The notes under the pieces were generated by a model. The model had not been told where the DNA came from. It made no database searches and saw only the letters and a list, made by a program, of their open reading frames with translations. DNA of 64,000 nt. It comes from Ferruginibacter sp. (GTDB lineage: Bacteria; Bacteroidota; Bacteroidia; Chitinophagales; Chitinophagaceae). Position numbers and translations under genes: made by a program. This document shows, in pieces, positions 1,350 through 63,703 of this stretch. The stretch covers positions 124,001-188,000 of the forward strand of contig JABFRP010000004.1 of NCBI GenBank assembly GCA_013141115.1. Direction: 5' to 3'. Each line of letters opens with the position of its first letter. The stretch's first letter is position 1.

Positions 1350-1417
1350 GTTACCAGCTATATTTCGTTGTTCAACATCGTTGCATCGCACTCTTGTACG
1401 TTTTGTTTTCTATTGAG
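1350..1417 (-). repeat. Dispersed 70-base element, copy A
   Basis: On the minus strand it runs from CTCAATAGAA through GTACAAGAGTGCGATGC to GCTGGTAACC. Outer ends match copy G (63634-63703), but the middle is of the AACGATG type, shared with copy D (40704). It lies between the convergent ends of thrC and the DUF4177 gene. There is no clear hairpin and no coding potential I trust. Confidence 0.75.
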
Positions 1418-1474
1418 CATTTATTGAAGCGTAGATTGATGCAAAATATTAAAAGGAAATTATACTGTACAAAC

Positions 1475-1693
1475 TTAAGCCTCGTGCTGTTTTTTTACTC
1501 TTTTAAAAATAAAAACCATTTCTGTTGTTTCTCCAACCTGCCAAAGCATTGAACTTCCATTCATCCCTTCGGCGCTGATCAGTTCCCACTCATCTTCCCC
1601 GTAATCATTAAATTTTGAAAGCATTTCTGTTTGAAAACTTTCTCTTTTCATATGTTCTCTGGATACTGTTAAAATTTTATATTCAAATTTCAT
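1475..1693 (-). CDS. DUF4177 domain-containing small protein
   Basis: 72-residue soluble protein. It begins MKFEYKILTV, has the EDEWELISAEG core and ends in a beta strand with FKR, the pattern of DUF4177 proteins, which are small cytoplasmic proteins of unknown role. No signal peptide or membrane segment. It stands alone, converging with thrC across a dispersed repeat, 58 bases downstream of the next lipoprotein gene on the same strand. The family assignment is by pattern recognition; no function can be inferred. Confidence 0.8.
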   Translation of the reverse strand: MKFEYKILTVSREHMKRESFQTEMLSKFNDYGEDEWELISAEGMNGSSMLWQVGETTEMVFIFKRVKKQHEA

Positions 1694-1751
1694 GGTAATT
1701 TAAGTTTTACTCAAGTTACAAACTAAAGCCAGAAATTGAATGCAAATACAA

Positions 1752-2195
1752 TTACTGTCGCTTAAAAGAATATTGATATTCGGAAGAAGCGGAGTAAATA
1801 AAACCATCCATTCTGTTGCTGCTTCTTTTAAAAATGGTATCATCAAATTCCCAGTCAATAAAACGGTTGGCTCCAAAGTTTACCAGCTTGATACGCAGCA
1901 CTAAATTATTTTGATACTGGTAATTGCCATTGGCGTCGTAATAGCCTCTGTCTTCATAATACATATTCCAGTTGCCCGACATTGTAATAGTATCTGAATA
2001 AGATGCCGTACCATTTTCATAAAATTTAAACAGGCCAGCTTCGTAACCTGTGGTAAGATGGCTGTTGTTAAAGAATTTTCTTTTAACTACATCATCCAGC
2101 TTCCAGGTACCCACAATTTTACTTTCGGGATCTAATTTTGCACAGGAAGAAAAAATAATAGTGCTTAATAAAGCGAAGGTGTAAAGTTTTTTCAT
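1752..2195 (-). CDS. Lipoprotein with lipocalin-like fold
   Basis: 147-residue predicted lipoprotein. The signal peptide ends in the lipobox FSSC, with lipidated Cys18. The mature part starts with the IVGTWKLDDV motif common to Bacteroidota lipocalin-like lipoproteins and continues with short beta strands (KFYENGTASYSD, GNWNMYYED). Probably a periplasmic or surface outer-membrane lipoprotein; ligand unknown. A candidate promoter (TTG, 18-base gap, TAATTTTC) lies about 50 bases upstream on the minus strand. It could instead belong to another small beta-rich lipoprotein family. Confidence 0.8.
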   Translation of the reverse strand: MKKLYTFALLSTIIFSSCAKLDPESKIVGTWKLDDVVKRKFFNNSHLTTGYEAGLFKFYENGTASYSDTITMSGNWNMYYEDRGYYDANGNYQYQNNLVLRIKLVNFGANRFIDWEFDDTIFKRSSNRMDGFIYSASSEYQYSFKRQ

Positions 2196-2480
2196 ACAGA
2201 AGTTTTTTAATTAACTACAAAAACAATTCCGTAGAATAACTGAAAATTAGTTTTGTACTATTATTAACAATGCTGTGATTTATTACAGATCTTAATTTTC
2301 ATTCCGGGATATTTTAGCTGCAGTGCAGCTTCTTTGCTACTTTAATAAAAGCTCAATAATGCTAAAAAAGTATATAAGTGCCCCGAATACTTTCGGGATA
2401 AACTGTGCGCCATGGCTGAACAGAATTCCTTGAGCTTGTAACAAAAAAGTATTAATTTTATAATCACAAAATTTTCCAAC

Positions 2481-3944
2481 GTGTTGTTTGGTCCAACGAT
2501 TATTGCTTTGCTTTTTAAACCCCGCTTTTTTTTAATTGCTCTACTTTGTTTTTGCTCCACTTTTGCTACGGCGCAATTGTGTAATGGAAGCTTGGGCGAT
2601 CCTGTAGTAAACATCAATTTTGGTAATGGCAGCTCGGTTACCACGGCTACCAACGGTTATATTTATACCAGCTCTACTTGTCCTAATGATGGGTATTATA
2701 CAGTTACCAGCAGCACAACAGGTTGTTTTAATAATAGCTGGCTCAGTGTTACAGCAGATCATACTGGTGGTGGTGCTTTTATGCTGGTTAATGCATCTTA
2801 TACACCCGGCGATTTTTTTTTAACTACGGTAACAGATCTTTGCCCCAATACTACTTACGAATTTGCAGCCTGGATGCTGAATGTATTGAGGAACAGTGGT
2901 ATTAAACCCAATATTACTTTCAGTATTGAAACACCGGCCGGGGTGGTGCTGCAGCAATATTCTACCGGCGATATTCCCGAAACATCGCAACCAACCTGGA
3001 AGCAATATGGCTTTTATTTCACCACACCCATTAATAATCCTGTAATCGTTTTGCGCATGACGAACAATGCACCGGGTGGCATTGGTAACGATATTGCTTT
3101 AGATGATATCACTTTCAGGCCCTGCGGCCCTGCATTTGTTACTGCAGATATACAGGCTAATAATGACACTGTAGATATTTGTGATAATAATACCAGCCAG
3201 TATATATTTAATGGTACTGTTTCTGTGGGCTATACGTCACCGGTATATCAGTGGCAGGTAAGCACAGATGCTGCTGCAAAGTGGACGGATATTCCGGGAG
3301 CCAACACATTAGCTTACCTGCGTATGCCTACAATGGCAGGCAATTATTTATACAGGCTAACAGTAACCGAACAATCAGCAATAAGCTTTACGGCCTGCCG
3401 TATTGCATCCAACGTGGTGGCAGTTAATGTACATGCAAAACCGGTGGTAAATGCCGGCCCCGATAAAATTGTATTTGCAAAAGATTCGGTTACACTCGAT
3501 GGAATTGCCACCGGGAATGATTTGTTGTATTATTGGGATCCTCCTGATTATTTAAACAACAGCAGCCTACTTACGCCTTTTGCTTCGCCACCATCAGATA
3601 TTGGATATACAATTTATGCAACATCACAATTTGGTTGTACTAACCAGGATGCGATGCAGGTAAAAGTAGTGGCAGGTATTTTTATACCCAATGCTTTTAC
3701 CCCTAACGGCGATGGGAAAAATGATCATTGGCGTATCCCATTTTTATATCCGCAGTTTGGTGCGGTGGTAAATGTATTCAACCGCTATGGGCAGTTACTG
3801 TATCATAGCGAAGGTGGCACTGTAGATTGGGATGGGAAATTGGGCGATTCGCCGCAACCCGCCGGCGCTTATATTTATCATATCCGGTATAAAAAAAGCA
3901 ACGGCGAAGTAAATTTGAAGGGTACGATAATGTTAATAAGGTAA
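2481..3944 (+). CDS. T9SS type B sorting domain (gliding-motility C-terminal) secreted protein
   Basis: 487-residue secreted protein. After a signal peptide (FFLIALLCFCSTFATAQ) come a carbohydrate-binding-like beta-sandwich (about residues 40-215, ending DDITFRPCGPA), Ig/PKD-like strands (220-395) and a C-terminal CHU_C domain with the hallmark IFIPNAFTPNGDGKND (about 405-420), ending GTIMLIR. CHU_C domains direct export by the type IX secretion system and often attach adhesins to the cell surface. There is no ATG: the frame opens with GTG at 2481, and TTG at 2508 would give a better signal peptide. Converges with the thioredoxin-like gene. Cargo function unknown. Confidence 0.9.
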   Translation: MLFGPTIIALLFKPRFFLIALLCFCSTFATAQLCNGSLGDPVVNINFGNGSSVTTATNGYIYTSSTCPNDGYYTVTSSTTGCFNNSWLSVTADHTGGGAFMLVNASYTPGDFFLTTVTDLCPNTTYEFAAWMLNVLRNSGIKPNITFSIETPAGVVLQQYSTGDIPETSQPTWKQYGFYFTTPINNPVIVLRMTNNAPGGIGNDIALDDITFRPCGPAFVTADIQANNDTVDICDNNTSQYIFNGTVSVGYTSPVYQWQVSTDAAAKWTDIPGANTLAYLRMPTMAGNYLYRLTVTEQSAISFTACRIASNVVAVNVHAKPVVNAGPDKIVFAKDSVTLDGIATGNDLLYYWDPPDYLNNSSLLTPFASPPSDIGYTIYATSQFGCTNQDAMQVKVVAGIFIPNAFTPNGDGKNDHWRIPFLYPQFGAVVNVFNRYGQLLYHSEGGTVDWDGKLGDSPQPAGAYIYHIRYKKSNGEVNLKGTIMLIR

Positions 3945-3952
3945 TGTGATTA

Positions 3953-4047
3953 GGTACAAGCAAGAGTGATTAATTTCTTTGTAGCAAAAAAGAAATTAAC
4001 AAACCACTATCGCCAATGCAACCCAATAGAACATTAAAAGCGGCTAT
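3953..4047 (+). repeat. Dispersed element, copy B, with hairpin insert
   Basis: Left part GTACAAGCAAGAGTG, right part CGCCAATGCAACCCAATAG and AAAGCGGCTAT. Between them sits an insert that starts with a hairpin: TTAATTTCTTT pairs with AAAGAAATTAA at about 3970-3999. It separates two convergent genes, so the hairpin may also end transcription. Confidence 0.65.
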
Positions 4048-4053
4048 CAAAAA

Positions 4054-4659
4054 TTACCCTTTGCGTTTAATAGTACAACCTACGCTTCTGCTTTCTTTAT
4101 GGCTAATTTCTTTGCCTGCAATCATTTCGTTAATAGCTTCTTTTAAATGATGACGTTTTACATTGTCAGCATCGCTGGGGTTATCGTCAATTGCACCATG
4201 GTACACTAATTTCAACTCTTTATTAAATAAAAATGATTCAGGGGTACGGTTGGCACCAAATGCATCGGCCAGTTCATGGTTTTTATCTATTACATAATGC
4301 CATTTGTAACCTTGCTCTTTAGCATAGGCTTTCATGGCTTCATAACTATCGGCATCATCACGTTGGCCTTCGTTACTGTTTAAAATAATTATACCCACAT
4401 TGTTTTTTTCGGCAAAGGCTGCTATATCAATGGTGCGTTGCTGATTTTTTATTACATACGGGCAGGTGTTGCAACTGAACATTACCAGCACACCATTTTC
4501 TTTTTTTACTTCTCTAATGGCTACCTCTTTGCCGGAAATATCTTTTAGTTTAACATCGGCCTTTGGCATTGCACTACCAATAGGCAATACTTCACTAACA
4601 GTAAATGCCATTGTTGCAATTGCTGCAAAAGCCAGCAGGGAAAACAATATTTTTTTCAT
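4054..4659 (-). CDS. Thioredoxin-family (redoxin) exported protein
   Basis: 201 residues with an N-terminal signal peptide (MKKILFSLLAFAAIATMAFT) and a thioredoxin-like fold of the AhpC/TSA-redoxin type. The redox motif is CNTCPYV (CXXC) at about residues 78-84; the cis-Pro region is NRTPESFLFN. This subgroup is common in Bacteroidota as a periplasmic thiol protein of unknown partner. The C-terminus carries a further Cys (SVGCTIKRKG). It converges with the T9SS gene and has no same-strand partner close by. Electron donor and substrate cannot be told from sequence. Confidence 0.88.
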   Translation of the reverse strand: MKKILFSLLAFAAIATMAFTVSEVLPIGSAMPKADVKLKDISGKEVAIREVKKENGVLVMFSCNTCPYVIKNQQRTIDIAAFAEKNNVGIIILNSNEGQRDDADSYEAMKAYAKEQGYKWHYVIDKNHELADAFGANRTPESFLFNKELKLVYHGAIDDNPSDADNVKRHHLKEAINEMIAGKEISHKESRSVGCTIKRKG

Positions 4660-4780
4660 AAAATAAATTTTAGTGTGTTTTAAAATTCGATGCTAATCAG
4701 CCTTCTACAAGTTGAGCCAGACGTTAGTATACAAAAGGGCTTATTAAAGTTAATGTAAGAATAAGCAAAATAAAAACCGC

Positions 4781-5749: not shown

Positions 5750-5887
5750 TAAACTGTTTTAATGGACAATGTTGTACTTTTTCAGTCAATATAAAAATAG
5801 CGAATTTATGATTGCAGAATGCTATTACATAATCAAGGTCATAAAACATACCACACTCTTTAACCTGATATTATAAATGCAGATAGA

Positions 5888-6925: not shown

Positions 6926-6954
6926 TGTTTATTATCAGAGCAACAAAGTAAAAT

Positions 6955-6981
6955 AAAAAACCCCGGTGTTACCAACGGGGC
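6955..6981 (-). terminator. Intrinsic terminator after secG
   Basis: On the minus strand AGCCCCG and CGGGG pair around a loop of about 10 bases and are followed by six T. It lies 32 bases after the secG stop and separates that group from mltG. Confidence 0.7.
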
Positions 6982-7012
6982 TATTAAAATATTTTTATAA
7001 AGTTTATTCAGC

Positions 7013-7372: not shown

Positions 7373-7376
7373 GTTA

Positions 7377-8273: not shown

Positions 8274-8316
8274 TTTTCAAAGCTATAGCACAAACCACAA
8301 ATGGCAAACTGTTTTT

Positions 8317-10113: not shown

Positions 10114-10120
10114 AGAGGCT

Positions 10121-31366: not shown

Positions 31367-31567
31367 TTTAGTAAAAGCAAATTCTTAAGAAAGTACTTAA
31401 AAAAAGTATTTTATTGAACTTAATATTGAAAATAGCAGTCAACAAATAAATTTACGCACAAACTCTGATTATCCAGAAAATTAAATATTGATTGTTACTA
31501 GCATTTATGTTGCCTTTCTGTATTTATAAAAACACCACTTCAGCTCAAATCTCCGCTGCGAAAAAAG

Positions 31568-31634
31568 CCCAGTAAAGCTTAAAAAGTACAAGAGTGCGAC
31601 GCCAATGAAGCTAAATAGAATTACTTACGCCTGT
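31568..31634 (+). repeat. Dispersed element, copy C, overlapping the plsX stop
   Basis: Runs from CCCAGTAAAGC through GTACAAGAGTGCGACGCC and AATGAAGCTAAATAGAATTA to GCCTGT. The last 10 bases lie inside plsX, encoding its final residues and stop. Confidence 0.75.
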
Positions 31635-32572
31635 CCCACAAAGCTATCCTTCATTTTTTCCAGCAGGTCGGTTTCAATCATGCGCTGTGCAATGCGGATC
31701 ATGTTTTTAAATGCGGTGGCATGGGAGATGCCGTGGCCAATAATTACAGGCTTGGCTACACCTAAAACGGGTACGCCGCCGTATTGCTCAAAATTAAAGC
31801 GGTCAAAATGTTCGTCGTGCAGGTTGCGGCGTTTTACAATATCGTAAATGCTTTCGGCAAGTTTTAAAACTACATTGCCGGTAAAGCCTTCGCAAACCAA
31901 CACATCGGCCTTGGTCATTAAAATATCCCGGCCTTCAATATTGCCAATAAAATTTATCTGGTTATTTTCTTTTAACAGGGGATAAGTAGCTTGTGCTAAC
32001 AAATTGCCTTTGCCTTCTTCTTCGCCTAAATTTACCAGGCCCACTTTGGGGTTATCAAAATTTAAAATATACTTGGCATATAAAGAGCCTAATACGGCAA
32101 ACTGGTTAAGGTTCTCGGGTTTGCAATCGGCATTAAGGCCAACATCCACCAGTAAACCTAAAGTGCCATCTTCACGGGGCATGTAAGCGCCAATGGTAGG
32201 GCGTAAAACGCCTTCGATGGCTTTAATGCTAAAGAGAGAGCCTACCATCATAGCGCCGGTATTTCCAGCACTGATAAAGGCATCAATTTTGCCGGAAGCC
32301 AGTAAATAAAAACCCACGGCAATGGAAGAATCTTTTTTTTCTTTTAAAGCTTTGGTGGGGTGCTCGTTCATCTCAATTACCTGTGTGGTAGCAACGATAG
32401 TGTATTTTTCGGCAGCTACAGGATGTGCTGCAAGATGTATTATTATTTGAGCTTCGTCGCCAATTAATGTAAGGTGAACATTAGTAGTGTTGGCGGCTAA
32501 AAATTCAGCAACTCCTTTTACAGCTTCCAGTGGCGCAAAATCGCCACCCATCATATCTAATCCTATATTCAT
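31625..32572 (-). CDS. plsX: Phosphate acyltransferase PlsX
   Basis: 315 residues from ATG 32572 (MNIGLDMMGGDFAPLEAVKG, the canonical N-terminus); a 12-codon upstream extension to 32608 is not conserved in the family. Makes acyl-phosphate from acyl-ACP for phospholipid synthesis. Core motifs: HPTKALKEKKDSSIAVG (about 85-101), FISAGNTGAMM, GFTGNVVLKLAES. It follows rpmF, as is usual; fabH, often next, is absent here. A hairpin with T-run between rpmF and plsX could attenuate expression. Its last codons lie in element copy C. Confidence 0.95.
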   Translation of the reverse strand: MNIGLDMMGGDFAPLEAVKGVAEFLAANTTNVHLTLIGDEAQIIIHLAAHPVAAEKYTIVATTQVIEMNEHPTKALKEKKDSSIAVGFYLLASGKIDAFISAGNTGAMMVGSLFSIKAIEGVLRPTIGAYMPREDGTLGLLVDVGLNADCKPENLNQFAVLGSLYAKYILNFDNPKVGLVNLGEEEGKGNLLAQATYPLLKENNQINFIGNIEGRDILMTKADVLVCEGFTGNVVLKLAESIYDIVKRRNLHDEHFDRFNFEQYGGVPVLGVAKPVIIGHGISHATAFKNMIRIAQRMIETDLLEKMKDSFVGQA

Positions 32573-32636
32573 TTCAATTGCTTTTATGGTAAGGGCTGCC
32601 TCCTTCAAAAATTTCAGGATGACATTGTGTTCCTTT

Positions 32637-40670: not shown

Positions 40671-40703
40671 AAAACAGTAAGTTTGTGCAAAACACAATTA
40701 AAG

Positions 40704-40771
40704 CTAAATAGTAGTAATGCAGATGAACGGATTGCGACGCAACGATGATGAAGCGCTTGTTGCAGCTGGTA
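40704..40771 (+). repeat. Dispersed element, copy D
   Basis: Starts CTAAATAGTA, holds ATTGCGACGC and the AACGATGATGAA middle shared with copy A, and ends in GCTGGTA. It lies just upstream of the glycosyltransferase ATG (40780) and is open in the same frame. Confidence 0.65.
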
Positions 40772-40779
40772 TTAAAAAA

Positions 40780-41799
40780 ATGCCATCTGTAGCAATTGTT
40801 ATTTTAAACTGGAACGGAAGAAATTTTTTACAACAATTTCTTCCTTCGGTAATGGCATCGGTGTATGAAAACAAAAGAGTAATTGTTGCAGATAATGCAT
40901 CTACTGATGATTCTATTGCATTTGTAAAAACGCATTATCCCTCCATTGAAATTATTATTAACAGCCATAATGAAGGTTTTGCAAAAGGCTACAACACCGC
41001 TTTAAAGCAGGTACAAAGCGATTATTATGTTTTACTGAACAGTGATGTGGAAGTAACGCCTGGTTGGATAACACCAGTTATTGAGTTGATGGAAAGCGAT
41101 ACTGCTATTGCTGCCTGTCAGCCTAAATTATTAGCATGGAGCAATAAAAATAAATTTGAGTATGCCGGTGCAAGCGGTGGCTGGCTGGATCAATTTGGCT
41201 ACCCTTTTTCCAGGGGAAGGGTGTTTGATATTTGTGAAGATGATAACGGGCAATACAATACAGCAGCTCCATGTTTTTGGGCAAGCGGTGCGGCATTGTT
41301 TGTAAAGGCAGCAATATATCATGAGATGAAAGGGCTGGACGAATACTTTTTTGCCCATCAGGAAGAAATAGACCTTTGCTGGCGGATGCAACTGGCGGGA
41401 TATAAAATTTATGTACAACCTGCATCGGTAGTGTATCATGTGGGTGGAGGTACTTTGCCCAAAGGCAACAGTAAAAAAACTTTTCTCAACTTTAGGAATA
41501 ATCTTATTATGTTGACCAAAAATTTATCAATGGCCAATGCCTTATGGAAAATTCCTTTCAGGCTGGGGTTGGATGCCGTATCTGCATGGGAAAATTTATT
41601 AAAAGGTGATGTAGGCTATTTTATTGCAATTGCAAAAGCACATGTACATTTTTTAAAATGGATATTATTTGATAAAAAACAATCTGTATTTCCTAAAAAA
41701 AAGAGTGGAAAGCCAAGCGGATGCTACAATGGGCTGGTGATATGGCAGTATTTTATAAAAAAGAAAAAAACGTTTTCAGAAATTGTTGATAACAAATAA
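40780..41799 (+). CDS. Family 2 glycosyltransferase
   Basis: 339 residues from ATG 40780 (MPSVAIVILNWNGRNFLQQF); 21 more codons are open upstream but translate element copy D. GT-A fold: NWNGR, VIVADNASTDDS (about 38-49), YYVLLNSDVEVTPGW with the DxD-like DVE, and a HQEEIDLCWRMQLAG acceptor-side motif. The C-terminus (about 240-300) has amphipathic helices. Rhamnosyl or galactofuranosyl-like transfer to surface glycans is usual for this group; acceptor unknown. Confidence 0.93.
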   Translation: MPSVAIVILNWNGRNFLQQFLPSVMASVYENKRVIVADNASTDDSIAFVKTHYPSIEIIINSHNEGFAKGYNTALKQVQSDYYVLLNSDVEVTPGWITPVIELMESDTAIAACQPKLLAWSNKNKFEYAGASGGWLDQFGYPFSRGRVFDICEDDNGQYNTAAPCFWASGAALFVKAAIYHEMKGLDEYFFAHQEEIDLCWRMQLAGYKIYVQPASVVYHVGGGTLPKGNSKKTFLNFRNNLIMLTKNLSMANALWKIPFRLGLDAVSAWENLLKGDVGYFIAIAKAHVHFLKWILFDKKQSVFPKKKSGKPSGCYNGLVIWQYFIKKKKTFSEIVDNK

Positions 41800-46027: not shown

Positions 46028-46108
46028 ACATAAAAAATTTAGGTAAAAATGTAATAAGGCAATAAATCTACAGCGAATACTTAACAAATGCTAATGATTT
46101 TTTTGTTT

Positions 46109-46344
46109 GCGTGGGAACATGCTTTGTGGCGTGTTCTGCAGTATTCTGCCTGCATGCGTCGCTGGTTAAAAACCAGGCGACCGCGAAGATTGAAGCGGAT
46201 GACCTACAGCGGCGGAGGTGATTTTTTTTTGCGTGGGAATATGCTTTGTGGTGTGTTCTGTAGTATTGTACCTCATAAGGCGCTGGTTAAAAAACCAGGC
46301 GACGGCGAAGATTGTAGCGAATTATACACAGCGGCGAAAGACTT
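46109..46344 (+). repeat. Tandem repeat, two copies of about 120 bases
   Basis: Each copy starts GCGTGGGAAnATGCTTTGTG and contains a hairpin CGCTGGTTAA..AACCAGGCG followed by CGGCGAAGATTG and ends with ACAGCGGCGrAr. Differences between copies are scattered substitutions. A third, partial copy starting near CGCCGGTTAAAAACCAAG lies at about 46431-46515. Confidence 0.8.
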
Positions 46345-46348
46345 AAAA

Positions 46349-46421
46349 CTCCGAAGGGGTGGTATTAATATAGAAAGATTATCGAAAGATAAATTTGCAA
46401 AACCCCGGAGGGGTGATATTA
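46349..46421 (+). repeat. Paired CCGAAGGGG / CCCCGGAGGGG motif
   Basis: CTCCGAAGGGGTGGTATTAA at 46349 and, 54 bases later, ACCCCGGAGGGGTGATATTA. Same pair and order as at 22487-22553. Confidence 0.7.
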
Positions 46422-46518
46422 GGCTTTAAGGCGCTACATACATCGCCGGTTAAAAACCAAGTGACGGCGAAGATGGGGACGGAGATTTGAAGCGATGATA
46501 CCTACAGCGTCGAAGATT

Positions 46519-48089: not shown

Positions 48090-48401
48090 TTGTGTATTTT
48101 ATGGTCTAAAATTTTGTTGTATTGACAGTTGTACAAAAATTACATCGGGGTAGTAGTAAAATTACTAGGTAAATGTATAATGCAATTTATAAAATAATAA
48201 TTAGAAATGCCCCTTCGCCAAGCTCGTGTTCTCACGGGACATTCGCTTCAATCCCGACTTTAATAAAAGTCCAATAAAGTTGTCTTGCTGAGGAGTGCGA
48301 CGCCAATGCAGCCCAATAGAATTACTAAAGCTAGTTACAAAATAAAAAAGTGGCTAAAGCCACTTGTATTTTTTCAATTGCACAAAGCAATGTTATTATT
48401 A
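48090..48401. other. 312-base spacer with element copy E
   Basis: Contains the start region of the membrane protein gene, a stretch without visible signal, the dispersed element copy E (48270-48339) and a short AT-rich lead into the stop of the cysteine desulfurase gene. At 48352 GTGGCTAAAGCCAC forms a small perfect palindrome (48352-48365). Confidence 0.65.
48270..48339 (+). repeat. Dispersed element, copy E
   Basis: TCCAATAAAG, then GAGGAGTGCGACGCCAATG, AGCCCAATAGAATTACT and GCTAGTTACA. Same orientation and nearly the same sequence as copy C (31568). Confidence 0.75.
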
Positions 48402-52128: not shown

Positions 52129-54108
52129 TTACTTCTTTTTATTATTCACCAACATCCATTTACTCGTTTCAAAAATAGCAGCCGTTAATTGCGATAATTG
52201 TTTTTTGATAGAATCTGATTGTTGAGTAGTGAGCGGAGGCAAACCGTCTTTAACAGGTACTAATTCCTGATGGGTGATGTTAACATTTTTTACAAAGTAA
52301 TAATCGTCTGTTATTACACCAATATTGCCTTCATCATGATGAATGATAAATGCAGAGTGAAAAATATCAGATTGATTAATCACATCTCTGCCTAAAGTGC
52401 TGTTGGTATAAGGTTGGTGTATCATGCCGGCTAATGTGGGCAATACATCAACCTGCGATACTGTGTAATCGTAAGTGACTGGCTGTAATAGTGCCGGCGC
52501 ATAATACAGCAATGGCACATGTTCATCACTCAGGCGATGGGAGTTCCATGCTTTGGGATATACGGCACCGGATTCTCCTTCCACACCATGGTCGCCAACA
52601 AAAACAAAAATGGTATTATTAAAATATGGTTGCTGCTTTGCAGCCTCCATAAATTTTTTAAAACAAAAATCGGTGTAACAAAATGCTTCGTATTCTGCCT
52701 GCGATTCAAAACCATTTTTTGCAAGTGTTTCTTTATCTAATTTTTCGCAGGTAAATTCTTTCTCATTTGGCGGCAGCATGTATGGCCTGTGATTATGTGC
52801 AGTTTGAATAACGGCAAAAAAAGGTTTGCTCTGTTGTTTAAAAACTTCGCCAGCTTCGGTAAGCAGATCTTTATCGCTGATGCCCCAAACATTTATTTCC
52901 GGCGCTTTATAACTGCCTTTTTCAAAAATGCTTAAGCCATCCACATTATTCATAAATCCTCTGAAATTATTGAACTGGCTTCTGCCGCCAATAAAATAAA
53001 ATTTATTGTAGCCCTCAAAATTGTTGATGATGGTTTGCTGGTTGGCAGCCTCCGGGTTTTGTGTGGAGAATTTGGCCATCTGCACATCGGGTATACCGCT
53101 GATAGTTGCAAAAACGCCTCTTGCAGTACCAAAGGTTGGCGTAAAACAGCGATTGAAGAAAATGCCATTTTTGCAAAGCTCATTAAAGTACGGTGTGCTG
53201 TTGAGTTTGTTGCCACTCATACTGCTTTTGTACATGCTGAAACTTTCGCAAAGCACTAAAACAATATTGGGTTTACTTTCCAGGCTTCGGCTGTTAGGCA
53301 GTATAGTTCTTTCGTAATTTAATTTAGATTGAGTTATTGAATCCAGCTGAAGATACTTTGCAATATCTGTATAATATTTTGCTGCACCGCTGGTATTAAA
53401 ATCGGGCTTGCGTTGTTTTAAAGAAGTAATAAAATTTTGAAAAGGATTTAAGGCGAGGTAACTTTTAAAGTTATCATTCAATTTGTAAGCATCTTGCCGG
53501 GTTAGTGGTTTTAATTGTAAAAAACCATACACAAACCAAAACATTAGTAATAATGCAAGCAAATACCAACGGCGCTTATATTCAAACTTGTGCCAGTAAT
53601 TGTTGGCATCTACACTGCCATGTGTACGACGAAATAATTTGGCAGTAAAAAAAACGGCGATACCTAGGCCAATCAATATCCATACAATGGGATAGGTTTC
53701 CCAAACCATGCGGAACATTTCGTAAGGATCGTCTTTAAAATTTAATGCACTGGCACCAATCCTGGTATGATTATAACTGAAGTTGCCAAAATCGGCACCA
53801 TAAAAAAACATAATGACCAGTGTGATGATGGCTAAATAGATCGTCCACACTTTTTTTGTTCGGGCAGAATGAAAGGGAGAAAATTTTTTAAAAATAGATA
53901 ACACAATGATAGGAGAGAGCACCACGGCTATCCAGCGCAGATCGTATTTTAAGCCCAGCCAAAAGGAAGGAAATAATTCTATAAAACCTATAGTATTAGG
54001 CTTAAAAAGAATTACAGTGGCAATACGGAATGCAGTAAACATACAGAGGTAGATAATAAATATTTTTATTATCCACTGAATGGTTTTAGATACTTTCCAC
54101 TTTCTCAT
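52129..54108 (-). CDS. LTA synthase family membrane sulfatase, paralog 1
   Basis: 659 residues. Five N-terminal membrane helices (about 10-190), then the sulfatase-fold domain (about 280-600): VLVLCESFSMYKSSM, the nucleophile region FTPTFGTARGVFATISGIPDV (Thr), HNHRPYMLPPNE, and metal-binding GDHGVEGESG. It belongs to the LtaS/MdoB/EptA-like alkaline-phosphatase superfamily. A Gram-negative cell lacks lipoteichoic acid, so transfer of phosphoglycerol or another phosphate group to envelope glycans or lipids is more likely. The second paralog lies directly upstream. Confidence 0.92.
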   Translation of the reverse strand: MRKWKVSKTIQWIIKIFIIYLCMFTAFRIATVILFKPNTIGFIELFPSFWLGLKYDLRWIAVVLSPIIVLSIFKKFSPFHSARTKKVWTIYLAIITLVIMFFYGADFGNFSYNHTRIGASALNFKDDPYEMFRMVWETYPIVWILIGLGIAVFFTAKLFRRTHGSVDANNYWHKFEYKRRWYLLALLLMFWFVYGFLQLKPLTRQDAYKLNDNFKSYLALNPFQNFITSLKQRKPDFNTSGAAKYYTDIAKYLQLDSITQSKLNYERTILPNSRSLESKPNIVLVLCESFSMYKSSMSGNKLNSTPYFNELCKNGIFFNRCFTPTFGTARGVFATISGIPDVQMAKFSTQNPEAANQQTIINNFEGYNKFYFIGGRSQFNNFRGFMNNVDGLSIFEKGSYKAPEINVWGISDKDLLTEAGEVFKQQSKPFFAVIQTAHNHRPYMLPPNEKEFTCEKLDKETLAKNGFESQAEYEAFCYTDFCFKKFMEAAKQQPYFNNTIFVFVGDHGVEGESGAVYPKAWNSHRLSDEHVPLLYYAPALLQPVTYDYTVSQVDVLPTLAGMIHQPYTNSTLGRDVINQSDIFHSAFIIHHDEGNIGVITDDYYFVKNVNITHQELVPVKDGLPPLTTQQSDSIKKQLSQLTAAIFETSKWMLVNNKKK

Positions 54109-54222
54109 GTTTGTATTAACCTTAATATTAAACGAGTGCGAATATAATACTCAATAGGGAGAATTGAATACTTAATAATTACAAAGGGTATTAGATTATA
54201 ATGCTATGGGTTTAAGCCGGAG

Positions 54223-56226
54223 CTATTTCTTTTTATTATTCAGTAATAAATATTTAGCCGTTTCATAATACGCATCGGTTAAATGGCTTAAATAATTTTT
54301 AATACTATCGGTGGCCGGAGTTTTTTGTACCGGGTCATTATTTATCATTGACACAAAGTTTTCTTTACCGGTTTTTAAGTTTTTAAGAAAATAATATTGG
54401 TTGCTGATCAGTCCTACCGTTTTTGCATCATGATCAATAATAAAAGAAAAATTCTCTTTGGGAAGTATGGATTTGTACTGCAATGCCGGAACAGTGTCAA
54501 ACAAATTTCTGCCAAAAGTAGTATTGCGGTAATTGGTTTTTACAAGCGATGCCACTGTAGGTAAAATGTCTGCCTGGCTGCACACCTCATTAATTCTTTT
54601 AGGTTGCAATAATTTAGGCGCATAAAAAAGCAGCGGTACGTGTTCGCACGTAAGTCCCTGCTCTGTCCAGCTTTTAGGAAACATATCGCCTGCATTGCCC
54701 CTGATACCATGGTCGCCAATAAAAACAAAAATAGTATTGTCGAAATATTTTTCTTTTTTAGCCGCTTCCATAAATTGCTGGTAGCTAAAATCGGTATAGC
54801 GAAAAGCATTCATTTCTTCATTACTTTCAAAGCCAAACTTTTTTAAGGAGTCGGTTGAAAAAGAAACTCTTTTAAATACGGCTTCATCTTCTTTGGGGAT
54901 GGTGTATGGCCGGTGGTTATCTGCAGTTTGAATGATGGCAAAGAAAGGTTTGGTTTGTTCTTTCAATACTTTATTGGCTTCTAAAAATAAATTTTTATCG
55001 CTGATACCCCACACATCAATTTTTGCAGCTTTATAATCCTGTTCTTCATAAAGATGTAAGCCATTAATATTGTTGGTTAGCAAACCACGTATGTTGGCCC
55101 AGGTGGCACTGCCGCCTAAAAAATAATAATTATTGTAGCCTTTAAAATCGTTGATGATGGTGTGCTGGTTTACAGCATTGGGGTTGCGGCTTGCTGTGCT
55201 GGGGCTTTCCACATCGGGTATGCCGGTAATGGTTGCCCACACACCACGGGCTGTGCCATAGGCGGGAGTAAAACAGCGGTCGAAAAAAATGCCGTTTTTA
55301 CAGAGTTCATTAAAGTAAGGCGTAGTGTTTAAAGGGTTGCCATACATGCTGCTTTTATAAGCGCTAAAACTTTCGCAGATCACTAAAACTACATTGGGTT
55401 TATTGCCAATTGAATCGGCAACGGTATATTTTCTTTCGTAGTTTAATTGTATGCTATCGGGTTGTTGCACTGCTAAATACTTAGCCATTAGGGGATAATA
55501 CTCTTTTACTTTTTTTGCATCGTAAGTAGAATTTCTAAAACTTAATGTGCTGAAAAAACTTTGAAAAGGATTGAGTGCCAGGTTGGCTTTAAAATCATCG
55601 CTTAATGTAAAAGCATCGCTCCAGCGCAGGGGAAACTGGCCAATCTTTCCAAAGATAAATCCTCCTAAAATAAAAAATGTGACGATATAAAATGCAATAC
55701 CTTTTCTTTTATAAAAACTGTCTTTTTGTAAATAACCACCAAGCAATCTTGCAAAAAGAAATCGGGCTAGCAGCAATAACACAGCTATGGCAATACCTAC
55801 TTTTATTAAAGGATAAGTTTGCCACATCATGTTAAAAGAAATACCTGCATCTTCCAAATAATTTAACACTGTTGCATTAAGGCGTTGGTGTAAATAATCA
55901 AAATGGTAAAAATCAATAAAATAAAAAAGTATTAGTACAGTAAAGATCAATGGCAATAAAATATTCCAGATTTTTTTTGCCGCCGCATTTTTAAAAGGGT
56001 TTAAAAACGGAATAGCGTTCAGCAGCATTATGGCCAACCCAACAATGCAGGCAATACGGGCATCAAATCTAAAACCTAAAATAAAAGCTGAGCCGGAAAA
56101 TGCTTTTTGGGGTGGATTATATTGTATATAAAACAGTATCCGGCAAATCGTCATGGTTAGCAATAATAAAATAACCACCGAAAATATCCAACGCAGTAAC
56201 CTGGGAATTCTTTGTAAAAAAAGCAT
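54223..56226 (-). CDS. LTA synthase family membrane sulfatase, paralog 2
   Basis: 667 residues with the same layout as paralog 1: five membrane helices, VLVICESFSAYKSSM, FTPAYGTARGVWATITGIPDVESPSTASRNPNAVNQHTIINDFKGYN, HRPYTIPKEDE, GDHGIRGNAGDMFPKSW. The pair reads as an old tandem duplication: long blocks are aligned without gaps, yet identity by eye is only moderate. The 114-base gap suggests separate or joint transcription. PAP2 and a CBS membrane protein diverge from its start. Catalytic Thr and metal ligands seem intact in both, so neither looks degraded. Confidence 0.92.
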   Translation of the reverse strand: MLFLQRIPRLLRWIFSVVILLLLTMTICRILFYIQYNPPQKAFSGSAFILGFRFDARIACIVGLAIMLLNAIPFLNPFKNAAAKKIWNILLPLIFTVLILFYFIDFYHFDYLHQRLNATVLNYLEDAGISFNMMWQTYPLIKVGIAIAVLLLLARFLFARLLGGYLQKDSFYKRKGIAFYIVTFFILGGFIFGKIGQFPLRWSDAFTLSDDFKANLALNPFQSFFSTLSFRNSTYDAKKVKEYYPLMAKYLAVQQPDSIQLNYERKYTVADSIGNKPNVVLVICESFSAYKSSMYGNPLNTTPYFNELCKNGIFFDRCFTPAYGTARGVWATITGIPDVESPSTASRNPNAVNQHTIINDFKGYNNYYFLGGSATWANIRGLLTNNINGLHLYEEQDYKAAKIDVWGISDKNLFLEANKVLKEQTKPFFAIIQTADNHRPYTIPKEDEAVFKRVSFSTDSLKKFGFESNEEMNAFRYTDFSYQQFMEAAKKEKYFDNTIFVFIGDHGIRGNAGDMFPKSWTEQGLTCEHVPLLFYAPKLLQPKRINEVCSQADILPTVASLVKTNYRNTTFGRNLFDTVPALQYKSILPKENFSFIIDHDAKTVGLISNQYYFLKNLKTGKENFVSMINNDPVQKTPATDSIKNYLSHLTDAYYETAKYLLLNNKKK

Positions 56227-56263
56227 TACTTTTTATTTTATCAGTTTGCTAAATTAGTTTAAT

Positions 56264-56271
56264 TATTTTTG
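56264..56271 (+). promoter_or_regulatory. -7 box of the PAP2 gene
   Basis: TATTTTTG, 32 bases before the ATG at 56304; TTTG at 56245-56248 is a possible -33 box with a short (15-base) spacer. Confidence 0.5.
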
Positions 56272-56303
56272 GGTGATTTTAATTTAACAACCACTTACAT
56301 TTA

Positions 56304-56867: not shown

Positions 56868-56871
56868 TATT

Positions 56872-58170: not shown

Positions 58171-58172
58171 AC

Positions 58173-58700: not shown

Positions 58701-58785
58701 TTAGCAAAGAGATTAGGTATTAAAATTTAGTTTCAAGATATTTGAACAGCAAAACTAACATAAACATTCAAGCCGGAGGAAGTAA

Positions 58786-59385: not shown

Positions 59386-59444
59386 TTTGCTATAGAGGCA
59401 CAGCGGCATATAATTGCATAGGCCATTTACGCTTAGATAAAAAT

Positions 59445-59532
59445 TGAATAAAGAAATATAGTTGAAGAGTGCACTTCCTTTGTCAGTGTAAACTCTGCCA
59501 ATGAAGCTGATAAAAGAAATTCAGCTGGTAAC
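59445..59532 (+). repeat. Dispersed element, copy F, with insert
   Basis: TTGAATAAAG, then GAAGAGTGC, a 22-base insert, CTGCCAATGAAGCTGATAAA and the end CAGCTGGTAACAAAA. The insert lies at the same point as in copy B. Confidence 0.65.
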
Positions 59533-59564
59533 AAAAAAACTAAACAATAACAATAAAGAAAACC

Positions 59565-61946
59565 ATGAAACAACTAACAGCGTTAGCTATTTTATTTTCA
59601 TTCGTGCTTTCTGTTGCTGCACAGGATATTAAAAATAATCCCGGCAGTAATCATGGAAACAGGTTTGAACAACTGGGTACTATTCTTCCAACACCCAACG
59701 AATATCGTACGGCAAGCGGTGCACCTGGGCCAAAGTACTGGCAGCAGCGTTGCGATTATGATATTACCTGTGAACTGGATGAACCCAACCGCAGATTGAT
59801 CGGCAAAGAAACATTGACCTATTTCAACAACTCTCCCGATGTATTAACTTATTTGTGGATTCAGTTAGATGAAAATGAACACAGCTCTGTAAACAATTCC
59901 GGTTATCAGAATAGCAGCTATATGCCAACCAGGATCGGCGAAGCCGATATTCAACGCTTTACCGGAAAGATGGATAAGGATAAAGAGTATGGCGATAATA
60001 TTACCCGTGTGGCAGATGCCGCTGGTAAATTATTAAAGTATACCATCAACAAAACAATGATGAGGGTAGAATTGCCACAGGCATTAAAACCCGGCCAACA
60101 ATTTATTTTTAAAATAGACTGGAACTATAATATTATAGAAAAAGGCAAATATGGCGGACGTGGAGGTTTCGAATATTTTCCGGAAGATGGTAATGACCTG
60201 TTCACCATGACGCAGTGGTTTCCACGCCTGTGTGTGTACAGCGATTTTCAGGGCTGGCAAAATCACCAGTTTGTGGGTAGCGGCGAGTTTGCGTTAACTT
60301 TTGGTAATTATAAAGTAGCTATGACGGTGCCTGCAGATCATGTGGTAATGAGTACCGGGCAAGGGCAAAACTACCAGCAGGTATTAACGCCTGCACAATT
60401 TGCACGCTGGCAAAAAGCGCAAACAGCCACTGATGTTACCGAAGTAGTAACATTAGATGAAGCCACTGCAAGAGAAAAACAAAAAGTAAAAGAGAAGAAG
60501 ACCTGGATATTTAAAGCTGATATGGTACGTGATTTTGCATGGGGTTCTTCACGCAAATTTGTTTGGGATGCCATGCCTGCAATGGTTGAAGGCAAAAAAG
60601 TAATGTGCATGAGTGCTTATGGAAAAGAAGCCTATAATTTATACAGAAAGTACAGCACCAAAGCAGTAGCACACACTATTAAAACCTATTCTAAATTTAC
60701 TATTCCATATCCATACCCTGTTGCACAAAGTTTAGAGGCTGCTAACGGCATGGAATACCCCATGATCTGTTTCAACTTTGGCCGTTGCGAAAAAGATGGC
60801 ACGTACAGCGAAGGAACAAAAAATGGTATGTTGGGGGTAGTGATACATGAAGTGGGCCATAACTTTTTTCCAATGATCATCAACAGCGATGAAAGGCAGT
60901 GGACATGGATGGATGAAGGTTTGAATTCTTTTGTGGAATATTTAAGTGAAGAATTATGGGATAATAAATTTCCGGTAAGCAAAGGCCCTGCATATAAAAT
61001 TGTAGATTATATGCGTTTGCCTAAAGACCAGCTGGAGCCTATTATGACCAATAGCGAAAACATTATTCAGTTTGGGCCTAATGCTTACAGCAAACCTGCA
61101 ACGGGTTTAAATATTTTAAGAGAAACCATTATGGGCAGAGAGTTGTTTGACTATGCTTTTAAAGAATATGCCAGGCGTTGGGCATTTAAACATCCTACAC
61201 CGGCAGATCTTTTCCGCACCATGGAAGATGCCAGTGCCGAAGATTTGGATTGGTACTGGAGAGGTTGGTTTTACGGAACTGAACCATGTGATATTTCTTT
61301 AGATACTGTAAAGTGGGCCAACTTAAGTACGGCATCAGTAGCACCACGTACCGGTGGTGGCGGCACTTCTAAAATACCTGTAACAAAACCATTACTTAAT
61401 ACCTTTGATGATATTTCTAAAATAAGAAACAGGGAAGATAAAAAAATAGTGTTTGCCACTGATGCTGATGAATCGTTAAGAGATTTTTACTGGAGATACG
61501 ACAGGGGATTGGCAAAAGTTGATGAAACGCCTTTTGAAGTTACCATGCCTGCAGCAAGCGTTGATACGTTTACAGAAGCAGAACGCTTTGCAATTGCCGG
61601 AAAGAAAAATATATACGAACTCACATTCAGCAACAAAGGCGGTTTGGTAATGCCAATAATTATTGAGTGGACATTTAAAGACGGTACCAAAGAAATAGAC
61701 AGGATTCCGGTACAGATATGGCGCAAGAATGAAAATAAGGTTACTAAAACATTTATGAAGGATAAAGAAGTGGCTTCTATTAAATTAGATCCGATGAGAG
61801 AAACTGCCGACATTAATGAAAAGAATAACAGCTGGCCATCTGTGGAAACACCCAGCAAGTTCCAATTGTTTAAAGGTGGCGGCGGCGGCCGTGGCCCAAG
61901 AGGTGGAGGCGGTGGTGGTAACCCGATGCAGAAAGAAATTAAGTAA
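59565..61946 (+). CDS. M1-family zinc metallopeptidase, exported
   Basis: 793 residues. Signal peptide MKQLTALAILFSFVLSVAAQ; beta-sandwich N-domain; M1 catalytic domain with VVIHEVGHNFFP (H-E-x-x-H, about 429-433) and the third ligand in WMDEGLNSFVEYL (about 452). The exopeptidase motif is replaced by NGMEYPMICF, as in the Bacteroidota group. The last 25 residues are Gly/Arg-rich (GGGGRGPRGGGGGGN), probably disordered. Periplasmic or surface aminopeptidase. Ends before a good terminator. Confidence 0.94.
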   Translation: MKQLTALAILFSFVLSVAAQDIKNNPGSNHGNRFEQLGTILPTPNEYRTASGAPGPKYWQQRCDYDITCELDEPNRRLIGKETLTYFNNSPDVLTYLWIQLDENEHSSVNNSGYQNSSYMPTRIGEADIQRFTGKMDKDKEYGDNITRVADAAGKLLKYTINKTMMRVELPQALKPGQQFIFKIDWNYNIIEKGKYGGRGGFEYFPEDGNDLFTMTQWFPRLCVYSDFQGWQNHQFVGSGEFALTFGNYKVAMTVPADHVVMSTGQGQNYQQVLTPAQFARWQKAQTATDVTEVVTLDEATAREKQKVKEKKTWIFKADMVRDFAWGSSRKFVWDAMPAMVEGKKVMCMSAYGKEAYNLYRKYSTKAVAHTIKTYSKFTIPYPYPVAQSLEAANGMEYPMICFNFGRCEKDGTYSEGTKNGMLGVVIHEVGHNFFPMIINSDERQWTWMDEGLNSFVEYLSEELWDNKFPVSKGPAYKIVDYMRLPKDQLEPIMTNSENIIQFGPNAYSKPATGLNILRETIMGRELFDYAFKEYARRWAFKHPTPADLFRTMEDASAEDLDWYWRGWFYGTEPCDISLDTVKWANLSTASVAPRTGGGGTSKIPVTKPLLNTFDDISKIRNREDKKIVFATDADESLRDFYWRYDRGLAKVDETPFEVTMPAASVDTFTEAERFAIAGKKNIYELTFSNKGGLVMPIIIEWTFKDGTKEIDRIPVQIWRKNENKVTKTFMKDKEVASIKLDPMRETADINEKNNSWPSVETPSKFQLFKGGGGGRGPRGGGGGGNPMQKEIK

Positions 61947-61966
61947 TTATTAAAATGCATTCATAC

Positions 61967-61995
61967 AAAGCTGCCTGTTATCGGGCAGCTTTTTT
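61967..61995 (+). terminator. Terminator of the M1 peptidase gene
   Basis: AAAGCTGCCTG/CGGGCAGCTTT stem (11 bp, one G-T pair, TTAT loop) followed by T6, 20 bases after the stop. Confidence 0.85.
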
Positions 61996-62036
61996 ATTTT
62001 GTGATAATTGTATCTTGCCAAATAAAATATTTCAGG

Positions 62037-62855
62037 ATGAAGAAAATCAGTTGCTTTTTTATTGTTGTTCTTTTTTCTTTTGCCAGCATTGCCGCTACTG
62101 TTGATACGGTGGCCGTTTTTAGCAATGCCATGCACCAATCAATAAATTGTGTGGTAATAAAACCAGATAGTTACAAGAAAAAGAAAAATCATTTTCCGGT
62201 GGTTTATTTGTTGCATGGCTACAGCGGCAAGTACAGCGATTGGATTATTACCATGCCCGGTTTGAAAGAATTGGCGGACGAAAATAAAATAATTATTGTA
62301 TGCCCGGATGGTGGTTTTAGCAGTTGGTATTTTGATAGCCCTATTGATAGCGCTTATAAATATGAAACACATGTGGTAACAGAAGTGGTAAGTTTTATAG
62401 ACCATAATTACCGCACTATTGCAGATAAAAACCACCGTGCCATTACAGGCTTAAGCATGGGTGGGCATGGTGGATTGTTTTTAGGCTTACGTCATGCTGA
62501 TGTTTTTGGTGCCGCAGGTTCTATGAGTGGTGGAGTGGATTTAAGCGAAAGCAGAAACCGTTTTCATATAATGAAACGTATTGGAGATACAACCGCCAAT
62601 GCAAAAAACTGGCACGACTATTCGGTGGTTAACTTAATTGAAAATTACAGCAACACGCCTGTAAAAATTATTTTTGATTGCGGTGTAAAAGATTTTTTTA
62701 TTGGCGGTAATCGACTGCTGCATAAAAAAATGATGGAGCTAAAAATACCACACGATTATATTGAGCGGCCCGGCGAACACAATTGGGATTACTGGAGAAA
62801 TGCGGTTAAGTTTCAGTTGTATTATTTCAGCAATTTTTTTGATAAGTCAGAATAG
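62037..62855 (+). CDS. Exported esterase (esterase D / alpha-beta hydrolase family)
   Basis: 272 residues from ATG 62037 (MKKISCFFIVVLFSFASIAA signal peptide; the upstream 12 codons are not part of it). Alpha/beta-hydrolase: HFPVVYLLHGYSGKYSDWI oxyanion region, nucleophile elbow GLSMGGHGG (Ser about 152), acid in FDCGVKDFF (Asp about 220) and His in GEHNWDYW (about 250). Resembles feruloyl/acetyl esterases and S-formylglutathione hydrolase-like enzymes. The substrate is probably a short acyl ester of carbohydrate or glycan (inference). Confidence 0.9.
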   Translation: MKKISCFFIVVLFSFASIAATVDTVAVFSNAMHQSINCVVIKPDSYKKKKNHFPVVYLLHGYSGKYSDWIITMPGLKELADENKIIIVCPDGGFSSWYFDSPIDSAYKYETHVVTEVVSFIDHNYRTIADKNHRAITGLSMGGHGGLFLGLRHADVFGAAGSMSGGVDLSESRNRFHIMKRIGDTTANAKNWHDYSVVNLIENYSNTPVKIIFDCGVKDFFIGGNRLLHKKMMELKIPHDYIERPGEHNWDYWRNAVKFQLYYFSNFFDKSE

Positions 62856-62880
62856 ATAATAAGAAGGTATTGCAAAGAAT

Positions 62881-62909
62881 AATTAAGGCCGCATTATGCG
62901 GCCTTAATT
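62881..62909. repeat. Perfect palindrome between convergent genes
   Basis: AATTAAGGCCGCAT / ATGCGGCCTTAATT, 14 bp with a single-base centre. It lies between the esterase and YwqK-like genes. Without a T-run it is a weak two-way terminator at best. Confidence 0.75.
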
Positions 62910-62927
62910 AAATGAATGACTTTGTTT

Positions 62928-63608
62928 TTACATTCCCGTCTTTCCATCTCTTAGCGCATTCTTCTTTCCTTTATTTTTCTTTTCCCACTCAAGCATTTCA
63001 GCTGTTTTATCGGGTTTTTTGTAGGGGCTTTTGGCATTAGCCGCCGCAGGCGTTCCGCCGGGTTTTTCTAAAAAGCCACGGTCGTATTTTTCAATTTTTA
63101 CCAGCCTGCCGGTGCTGGGGTCAAAATATTTCCATTCGCCATGCTTAACGCTGTATTGCTCGGCTTTAACCAGCTTCATGTCTATTATTTCGTTGCTTCC
63201 TGTGCCATAAACGGCTACGGTATCAAAAGGTGCTTCAGGGTCGTAGCCACGCCAGCTTTCCTCACGGTACAAGTCGCCCAGGTAAGTATAATATTGTTGT
63301 ATGCCATGCTTACCGCCTAACTTATAATTTTCCACGGCAATTATATCGCCGGTTAAATTATACAGGCGCCAAATACCTTCTTTCTTATCATTTTTAAAAA
63401 GTCCTTCTTCTTCATAACCTGGCTCGCCCCTTACTTCATCTACATGTATCACCCATTTACCCTGCTTCATATCTTTTTTATCAATGGCATTAATGGTGTC
63501 GCCTTTTTCAGATATCTTATAAGTTTTATACTGTGCAAAGCCATTCATCAAAAACAAAAATTGTATGATGAACAATAAGAACAATTGCCGTATTTTTAAA
63601 CTTCTCAT
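62928..63608 (-). CDS. Exported YwqK-like (MORN-type repeat) protein
   Basis: 226 residues. Signal peptide (LFLLFIIQFLFLMNGFAQ), then repeated GxWxxY/xxG-type units: KQGKWVIHVDEVRGEPGYEEEGLFKNDKKEGIWRLYNLTGDIIAVENYKLGGKHGIQQYYTYLGDLYREESW, later KHGEWKYFDPSTGRLVKIEKYDRGFLE. These resemble the repeats of YwqK-type proteins (some annotated as antitoxins without experimental proof) and MORN proteins. The C-terminus is Lys/Pro-rich. Role unknown; there is no toxin gene nearby. Confidence 0.85.
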   Translation of the reverse strand: MRSLKIRQLFLLFIIQFLFLMNGFAQYKTYKISEKGDTINAIDKKDMKQGKWVIHVDEVRGEPGYEEEGLFKNDKKEGIWRLYNLTGDIIAVENYKLGGKHGIQQYYTYLGDLYREESWRGYDPEAPFDTVAVYGTGSNEIIDMKLVKAEQYSVKHGEWKYFDPSTGRLVKIEKYDRGFLEKPGGTPAAANAKSPYKKPDKTAEMLEWEKKNKGKKNALRDGKTGM

Positions 63609-63633
63609 TTTTATAAATTTAATTTCTATTTAT

Positions 63634-63703
63634 GTTACCAGCATTTATAATTCTATTGGGCTTCATTGGCATCGCACTCTTGTACTGCATCAATTCTATT
63701 CAG
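63634..63703 (-). repeat. Dispersed element, copy G
   Basis: On the minus strand: CTGAATAGAATTG, GTACAAGAGTGCGATGCC, AATGAAGCCCAATAGAATTA, GCTGGTAACA. The best-preserved copy. The plus strand through it is open and would encode a hydrophobic stretch upstream of the beta-propeller gene. Confidence 0.8.

Follow-up and report, generated by a model that had tools for sequence, protein, structure and literature searches.

The 64,000-nucleotide stretch of Ferruginibacter sp. DNA analysed here (the window) contains copies of a repeat that is about 85 bp long, dispersed and for the most part non-coding. With a probability of roughly 0.55, we interpret it as a mobile, non-autonomous family of intergenic repeats whose recognised DNA core is able to act as a recombination joint. 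The repeat has no clear stem, yet one genome carries more than two thousand exact cores, with at most two copies per intergenic gap in the stretches studied and a fixed orientation rule. It offers a testable way into two questions: by what means repeats of this kind spread when no transposase is known for them, and whether conserved short joints are what drives the exchange of genes between phage and host.

Layout of the repeat and its copies in the window

Each copy runs from a head (ATAAAAG.TCAATAAAG) through a 20-bp core to a head-like second block and then a tail (GCYGGKTAC); the DNA that comes next is A-rich. The core is GTACAAGAGTGCGACGC plus a few sister cores, and core types can differ at the same locus, with AAGTGTGCGACGCAA in G315 and AAGTGAGTGACACAA in G407; a literature search with three core strings gave no paper that mentions them. 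The initial annotation described fixed ends around a variable middle, but it is the core that is constant, not the two ends. By column majority the bases at positions −4 to −1 of the core are GTAC in G000 and G126; GCAC is also frequent there, as is GTTG in G000. The similarity exceeds that of shuffled sequence: allowing up to three mismatches, GTACAAGAGTGCGACGC has three matches in the window against 0.05 expected, and none of 100 shuffles reaches three. The exact 13-mer core AAGAGTGCGAYGC occurs 54 times in the genome to which the window belongs, and its reversed pattern does not occur; relatives in the Chitinophagaceae have up to 2,301 exact cores.

We scanned the whole window, without filters, using a sequence-only model built from 55 copies of the same genome, namely the 54 with an exact 13-mer and the copy at 48270. 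All seven initially listed sites hold a member of the family, although three (40704, 3953, and 59445) are not textbook copies. Four match by construction because they belong to the training set: copy 5 at 48262–48343 on the plus strand (core GCTGAGGAGTGCGACGCC; E = 2.7e-19), copy 3 at 31561–31642 on the plus strand (8.8e-19), copy 7 at 63629–63705 on the minus strand (2.9e-17), and copy 1 at 1344–1425, also on the minus strand (6.4e-14). The last two share the core GTACAAGAGTGCGATGC, at 63669–63685 and 1383–1399, respectively, and copy 3 has an intact core at 31586–31602, with orthologous copies in G487, G489, G483, and G514. The tail end of copy 1 adjoins the stop codon of the gene at 44–1342 (threonine synthase by Pfam), and the tail of copy 3 overlaps the 3′ end of the minus-strand gene at 31625–32608. 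Copy 7 sits upstream of the minus-strand gene at 62928–63608. Downstream of copy 5 there is an A-run and then, by eye, a terminator-like hairpin.

The other three listed copies, all on the plus strand, lie outside the training set. In copy 6 (59436–59538; E = 7e-11) about 21 additional bases interrupt the core following AAGAGT, and copy 4 (40696–40779; 3.5e-6) has the variant core GATTGCGACGCAAC. Copy 4 is coding: it lies at the N-terminal end of a glycosyltransferase 2 gene (40717–41799), in the gene's reading frame, and the statement in the initial annotation that the element is non-coding fails at this site. Copy 2 (3953–4053; family D15), whose tail abuts the stop codon of the minus-strand gene at 4054–4659, fits the model in its right half only (4011–4053; E = 0.0043), its core being split by a palindromic insert. 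An eighth copy, new to the earlier list, lies on the plus strand at 2344–2448 and matches the model in two halves (2344–2375, E = 0.018; 2412–2448, E = 0.0031), with CCCCGAATACTTTCGGG splitting its core after AAGTG. Three of the eight window copies therefore have split cores; the insert folds clearly only in copy 2 (z = −3.5), and weakly in copy 6 (−1.4) and the eighth copy (−1.3). Core inserts are rare, with three among 126 high-scoring Ferruginibacter copies, plus one tandem duplication.

Abundance and placement between genes

Among 30 chosen Chitinophagaceae genomes the number of exact cores ranges from 0 to 2,301, and the highest counts, taken over three core types, are in G427 (2,301), G435 (2,168), G126 (1,715), and G346 (1,568). 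Strands are balanced in G427 (1,151 versus 1,150), and the reversed-pattern control never gives more than one match on either strand of a genome. Within one genus, G298 has no exact core and G389 has 452; a similar contrast is seen between G390 with one and G033 with 156. We considered whether low-copy genomes hide another dialect and rejected this for G298, G390, G338, and G352, where no 11-mer exceeds eight per 100 kb (eight in G298 and seven in G352, versus 31 in G427 and 20 in G126), in a test that cannot detect a repeat as sparse as that of G033, where the maximum count is five.

In the two dense stretches chosen for closer study, 314 of 319 copies lie outside genes (153/155 over 400 kb of G126 and 161/164 over 300 kb of G427), and GTGCGACGCAA is inside coding sequence in only 2 of 101 occurrences in G427 and none of 115 in G126. 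Neighbouring copies less than 300 bp apart are almost always head to head (30/31 in G126 and 32/33 in G427, together 62/64); the G427 figure leaves out a tandem gene array at 249–296 kb, which was still included in a first count of 49 of 51 pairs less than 400 bp apart, and of which the 33- and 40-bp pairs in G427 are partly a product. Successive copies at least 300 bp apart are most often in +− order (54/94 in G427 and 55/123 in G126). Intergenic regions of at least 100 bp (172 in G126 and 125 in G427) never contain more than two copies each, and most of those of at least 200 bp are occupied (82/111 and 49/65, respectively).

Orientation relative to the neighbouring genes is mixed. Where the tail points toward a gene start, the promoter-like TAnnTTTG lies between tail and gene in the sense rather than the antisense direction (12:3 in G126 and 9:2 in G427), and is found before the head only three and two times, respectively. 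Where the tail points toward a gene end, hairpins below −8 kcal/mol lie beyond it in 28% and 20% of cases versus 9% and 2% in simple shuffles, although in G427 they are as frequent before the head (20%). We see no promoter rule in the genome of the window itself, because 8 of its 10 sense TAnnTTTG motifs precede the head, in bins −90 to −70, and antisense motifs, at 21, are commoner than sense.

Core conservation and competing explanations

Comparison of two sister species of Ferruginibacter, G538 and G539, shows where the repeat is conserved. Leaving out six weaker G538 matches, 23 of 23 tested copies are orthologous in place, and we see no recent jump in this pair because all of them are common to both. 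The 20-bp core differs at 6 of 460 sites (1.3%), versus 59/598 in the head and 72/874 in the post-core part (8–10% for the element outside the core); even well conserved columns outside the core differ at 39 of 437 sites. Flanks differ by 6–11% overall, with 148/2300 on the tail side and 713/6900 on the left, or 413/6300 without two pairs that have unlike left DNA. Core change is thus about five to seven times lower than in the surrounding DNA. The two unlike pairs were considered as identity breaks at the core, but both break elsewhere: in one, dissimilar DNA sets in about 35 bp to the left and continues for about 160 bases before similarity returns, and in the other a different neighbour begins some 100 bp to the left. 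Gene conversion could be the source of the core conservation.

That conversion between copies is all that keeps core identity in an otherwise functionless, drifting old repeat is favoured by different core types at one locus and by a head and tail evolving at about the flank rate; but conversion tracts would need to be limited to about 20 bp at 23 of 23 loci, and we consider this improbable. A structured RNA or REP-type palindrome is very improbable. The core does contain a short inverted repeat of 3–4 bp (TGCGACGCA), its columns 7 and 11 pair in 99–100% of copies, switching jointly from C-G to T-A as the core type changes, and some copies bear hairpin inserts at one same point of the core. 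However, folding of single copies shows no clear excess over dinucleotide shuffles, with mean z ranging from −0.80 to +0.35 across 18 tests that used 40 copies apiece, and therefore both forms are unsupported; the lowest value (the window's own genome, whole element, RNA parameters, with 17% of copies below −2) is the only hint of folding. Outside the one in-core pair, the columns that correlate most strongly do so in a way that resembles register shifts. A stem between core and tail (GAGTGCGAC with GCCGGGCTC) appears possible by eye and is absent from the column correlations. An Rfam scan gave no match where a copy lies, and the mixed orientation to neighbouring genes also argues against this explanation.

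Copies could mark the boundaries of transcription units, with a chromosomal protein binding the core outside promoters and terminators to insulate or organise the units, and head-to-head pairs being the ends of two units. The prevalence of +− order among spaced copies, the limit of two per intergenic region, the occupancy of most longer regions, the sense bias of TAnnTTTG, the hairpin excess over simple shuffles at gene ends, and the core constraint between the sister species are all in keeping with such sites; yet some genomes of the same genus do without the element, the window's own genome shows no promoter rule, and G427 hairpins are equally common before the head, so that we regard this explanation as possible, if unlikely. 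It is doubtful that the core is a DNA-uptake-like signal, kept and spread through preferential uptake and recombination of the DNA that bears it: thousands of copies on balanced strands, sister cores, inverted pairs, and a core that is kept while the rest of the element drifts all fit, but there are nearly no coding copies, and the core is embedded in an 85-bp repeat with a common head and tail. We also speculate, as a rather unlikely combination, that in some Chitinophagaceae inward-pointing copies with a core under selection bracket most transcription units, with a double role as boundary sites on the chromosome and as joints for the exchange of units and also of phage genes—a genome-wide system of gene-cassette boundaries.

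Proposed mobility, known systems, and phage copies

Our preferred reading remains that of a mobile repeat between genes, its core usable as a joint. A DNA-binding protein or a recombinase would recognise the core as double-stranded DNA, new copies would be made in the DNA that borders transcription units, with the tail toward the nearest gene, and the inserted core may then serve as a joint for the exchange of flanking segments. Of the two interpretations first offered, a mobile or recombining unit is favoured by the strong copy-number differences within a genus, the presence of copies in phages, and one phage pair that changes identity at the core, whereas a structured RNA is not. Comparisons of occupied and unoccupied loci revealed absences, no exact junctions, and no unambiguous pairing of an empty site with a target duplication; G412 is without the element at six of six comparable window sites, where its intergenic flanks align poorly, and G537 has one clear short allele that could be a deletion. 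Among 443 copies tested for nested insertions, none was judged to have a clean, exact empty site, a few small gaps in the G427 array aside. No terminal inverted repeats were seen in single copies, and a head-to-head pair as a whole is an inverted repeat. A transposon bounded by two copies of the element found no support in the two inverted pairs inspected in the window's own genome: at spacings of 1.5 and 3.1 kb, they enclose genes that look ordinary by eye.

Bacterial high-copy intergenic repeats are usually palindromes, and the best known are linked to a transposase. A REP system with its RAYT was rejected here, as presence of the Y1 transposase family (PF01797) does not track copy number; there is no PF01797 match in the densest genome, G427, or in G315, and of the eight RAYT loci examined, two lie no more than about 300 bp from a copy, each in a genome that bears the repeat. 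DNA uptake sequences of Neisseria and the Pasteurellaceae are about 9–12 bp long and also lie in genes, and the Haemophilus signals are likewise short; our repeat resembles them in having about a thousand or more copies on both strands, inverted pairs near gene ends, and species dialects, but its core is almost never in genes. Short conserved sites at which neighbouring genes are exchanged form the boundary sequences of mosaic phages; unlike these, the present sequence is also a high-copy repeat in host genomes.

REP sequences are described as palindromes of 20–40 bp with terminal GTAG or CGTC, the CGTC stems being 8–9 bp long and that class likewise lacking a known transposase in the same account (PMC3733652). 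The present repeat is like REP/BIME as described there in its high copy number, intergenic position, head-to-head dimers, placement near gene ends, and patchiness between species, and differs in that a single copy is about 85 bp without a clear stem, mostly with GTAC before the core; it also differs from the GTAG class in the lack of a Y1 transposase family match in its densest genome (PMC3733652). RU-1 to RU-3 of enterobacteria, described as small MITE-like mobile repeats that also occur inside genes, are similarly small and intergenic, but the terminal inverted repeats of such elements are not seen in our single copies (PMC2759123). The staphylococcal STAR elements are also interspersed intergenic repeats (PMC3532100).

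Copies are also present in phage contigs. Between the phage contigs L143 and L157, 3 of 239 sites differ to the left of the core, 0 of 19 within it, and 54 of 294 columns to the right, a change from 1% to 18%, and the two are unlike again farther to the left; as a single pair, this break at the core could reflect ordinary homologous recombination. In a further phage contig, L155, a copy follows a head-decoration gene at a distance of 13 bp, and genes for the tail sheath and the tape measure are nearby.

Copies of the element and their distribution

The seven places at which the initial annotation had put a dispersed element with fixed ends and a variable middle do hold one element: a sequence-only profile built from 55 copies in the same genome matches six of them end to end and the seventh in its right half. 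Four of these copies belong to the training set, so independent support rests on the other three, at 59436–59538 (E = 7e-11), 40696–40779 (E = 3.5e-6), and 4011–4053, the right half-copy (E = 0.0043). An eighth copy, at 2344–2448, carries extra DNA inside its core. Further copies are present in the genome and its relatives, with at least 98 model matches in the genome (a lower bound, the scored set being 150 first-look candidates) and matches in 12 of 12 genus genomes tried; the genome, 5.44 Mb in size, contains 54 occurrences of the 13-mer AAGAGTGCGAYGC and none of its reversed control. Among 296 genomes drawn from the phylum, nine contain AAGAGTGCGAYGCMA, five of them in the same family and the other four with a single match each; within the family it is present in 78 of 195. 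A pattern for three core types matches 22 of 30 chosen genomes, with a maximum of 2,301 matches, balanced between strands, in the copy-dense genome G427, and with none in G298 versus 452 in its genus mate G389. Ferruginibacter appears in 57 of the 80 titles listed for the 107 stretches with the long form of the motif. Genus mate G487 and genome G538 have identical copies at identical coordinates.

Aligned on the core, copies are nearly gap-free from about −37 to +53, and consist of a head (ATAAAAG.TCAATAAAG), the core (GTACAAGAGTGCGACGC(C/A)A), a second block (AATGAAGCT.AATAG or ACGATG), and a tail (GCYGGKTAC), with A-rich DNA after it; further core types in other genomes are AAGTGTGCGACGCAA, AAGTGAGTGACACAA, and AACCGAGCGTGGCAA. 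At one point in the core, 3′ of AAGAGT or AAGTG, unrelated and in part palindromic inserts are found in the window (2344–2448, 3953–4053, and 59436–59538), in stretches L114 and L117, and at G407/G536 loci L129 and L136. Around position 1513 of stretch L034 the element lies in a tandem duplicate whose left and right halves pair over 118 bases, and several copies (L009, L025, and L037) have another small palindrome, GTCCCGTAGGGAC, upstream.

Position relative to genes

Placement was examined in 400-kb and 300-kb stretches of G126 and G427, respectively, using a simple in-house gene caller for genes and a weight matrix (score >20) for copies, so that counts are approximate. Copies lie between genes in 153/155 and 161/164 cases, and occupy 82/111 and 49/65 of the intergenic regions of at least 200 bp; every region of at least 100 bp carries two or fewer (172 and 125 regions), and divergent regions of 100–199 bp are mostly empty (occupied, 0/8 and 2/10). 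Neighbors <300 bp apart are head to head in 30/31 and 32/33 cases; at larger spacing the +− order is commonest (55/123 and 54/94). When the tail-side gene has its 3′ end facing the copy, its stop codon is <20 bp from the tail in 41/91 and 33/68 cases. In G427 (C1:249000–296000; L078–L080), a ~2.6-kb unit forms a tandem array with a head-to-head element pair in most gaps.

TAnnTTTG is the Bacteroidetes −7 box, and promoter-like matches between tail and gene start favor sense over antisense (12 versus 3 in G126, 9 versus 2 in G427). The window's own genome follows no such rule, with 10 sense matches, 8 of them before the head, versus 21 antisense. Hairpins are enriched 3′ of the tail, and in G427 are equally frequent before the head. 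That the core or element has a boundary function finds some support but seems unlikely. Contrary to the earlier description of the element as non-coding, the copy at 40696–40779 supplies the in-frame beginning of a glycosyltransferase, in three relatives as well as in the window, and another copy is read through by a phage open frame.

Inheritance, phages, and candidate mechanism

We compared 23 of the 29 matches in G538, leaving out the six weakest, with its sister species G539. All 23 have an orthologous copy, and one G539 match is unpaired; picking G538 copies by model match favors intact cores on that side, and dropouts are 0/23. Differences affect 6/460 core sites, 59/598 in the head, 72/874 after the core, and 713/6900 in the left flank (413/6300 without two pairs having unlike left DNA); near left and tail flanks differ at 260/2300 and 148/2300. 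Well-conserved non-core columns drift almost as the remainder does (39/437 versus 36/322). The head and tail thus appear to reflect common descent, and the core a retained site. Among more distant members of the genus, the window copies at 31561–31642 and 40696–40779 are in place in some species and missing in others, and G412 lacks the element at 6/6 comparable sites. In a second genus, two species share a core type at one locus where a third has a different type, and core tips are enlarged at two loci.

The core also occurs in twenty IMG/VR stretches, several from one phage, and on one contig tail sheath, head decoration, and tape-measure genes surround the copies; a blastn search with the copy at 63629–63705(−) found no match in collections of plasmid and phage records. 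One pair of related phage contigs, a single example, shows near identity over the 239 bp leading to the core and 54/294 differing columns after it; a third contig shares the pair's right side, has a different left segment, and beyond that is again 96% like the second.

These data are consistent with a small mobile repeat that would settle at transcription-unit edges, has a core recognized as DNA, and perhaps spreads through a recombinase. PF01797 is not a general requirement for the element, and no enzyme for its spread was found. An uptake-like drive that keeps and spreads the core seems improbable, more so than a boundary function. The suggestion of a structured RNA is not supported; single-copy folding showed no clear gain over shuffles (18 mean z values, of which the window's genome gave the lowest, −0.80). 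The element misses the defining features of both REPs and structured RNAs, and we therefore class it with neither.

The window also contains an intergenic tandem repeat at 46100–46483, with ~50-nt units containing CTGGTTAAAAACCAG at spacings of 122 and 162, and two adjacent paralogous genes at 52129–56226 (~660 aa, 71–83% identity in pieces).
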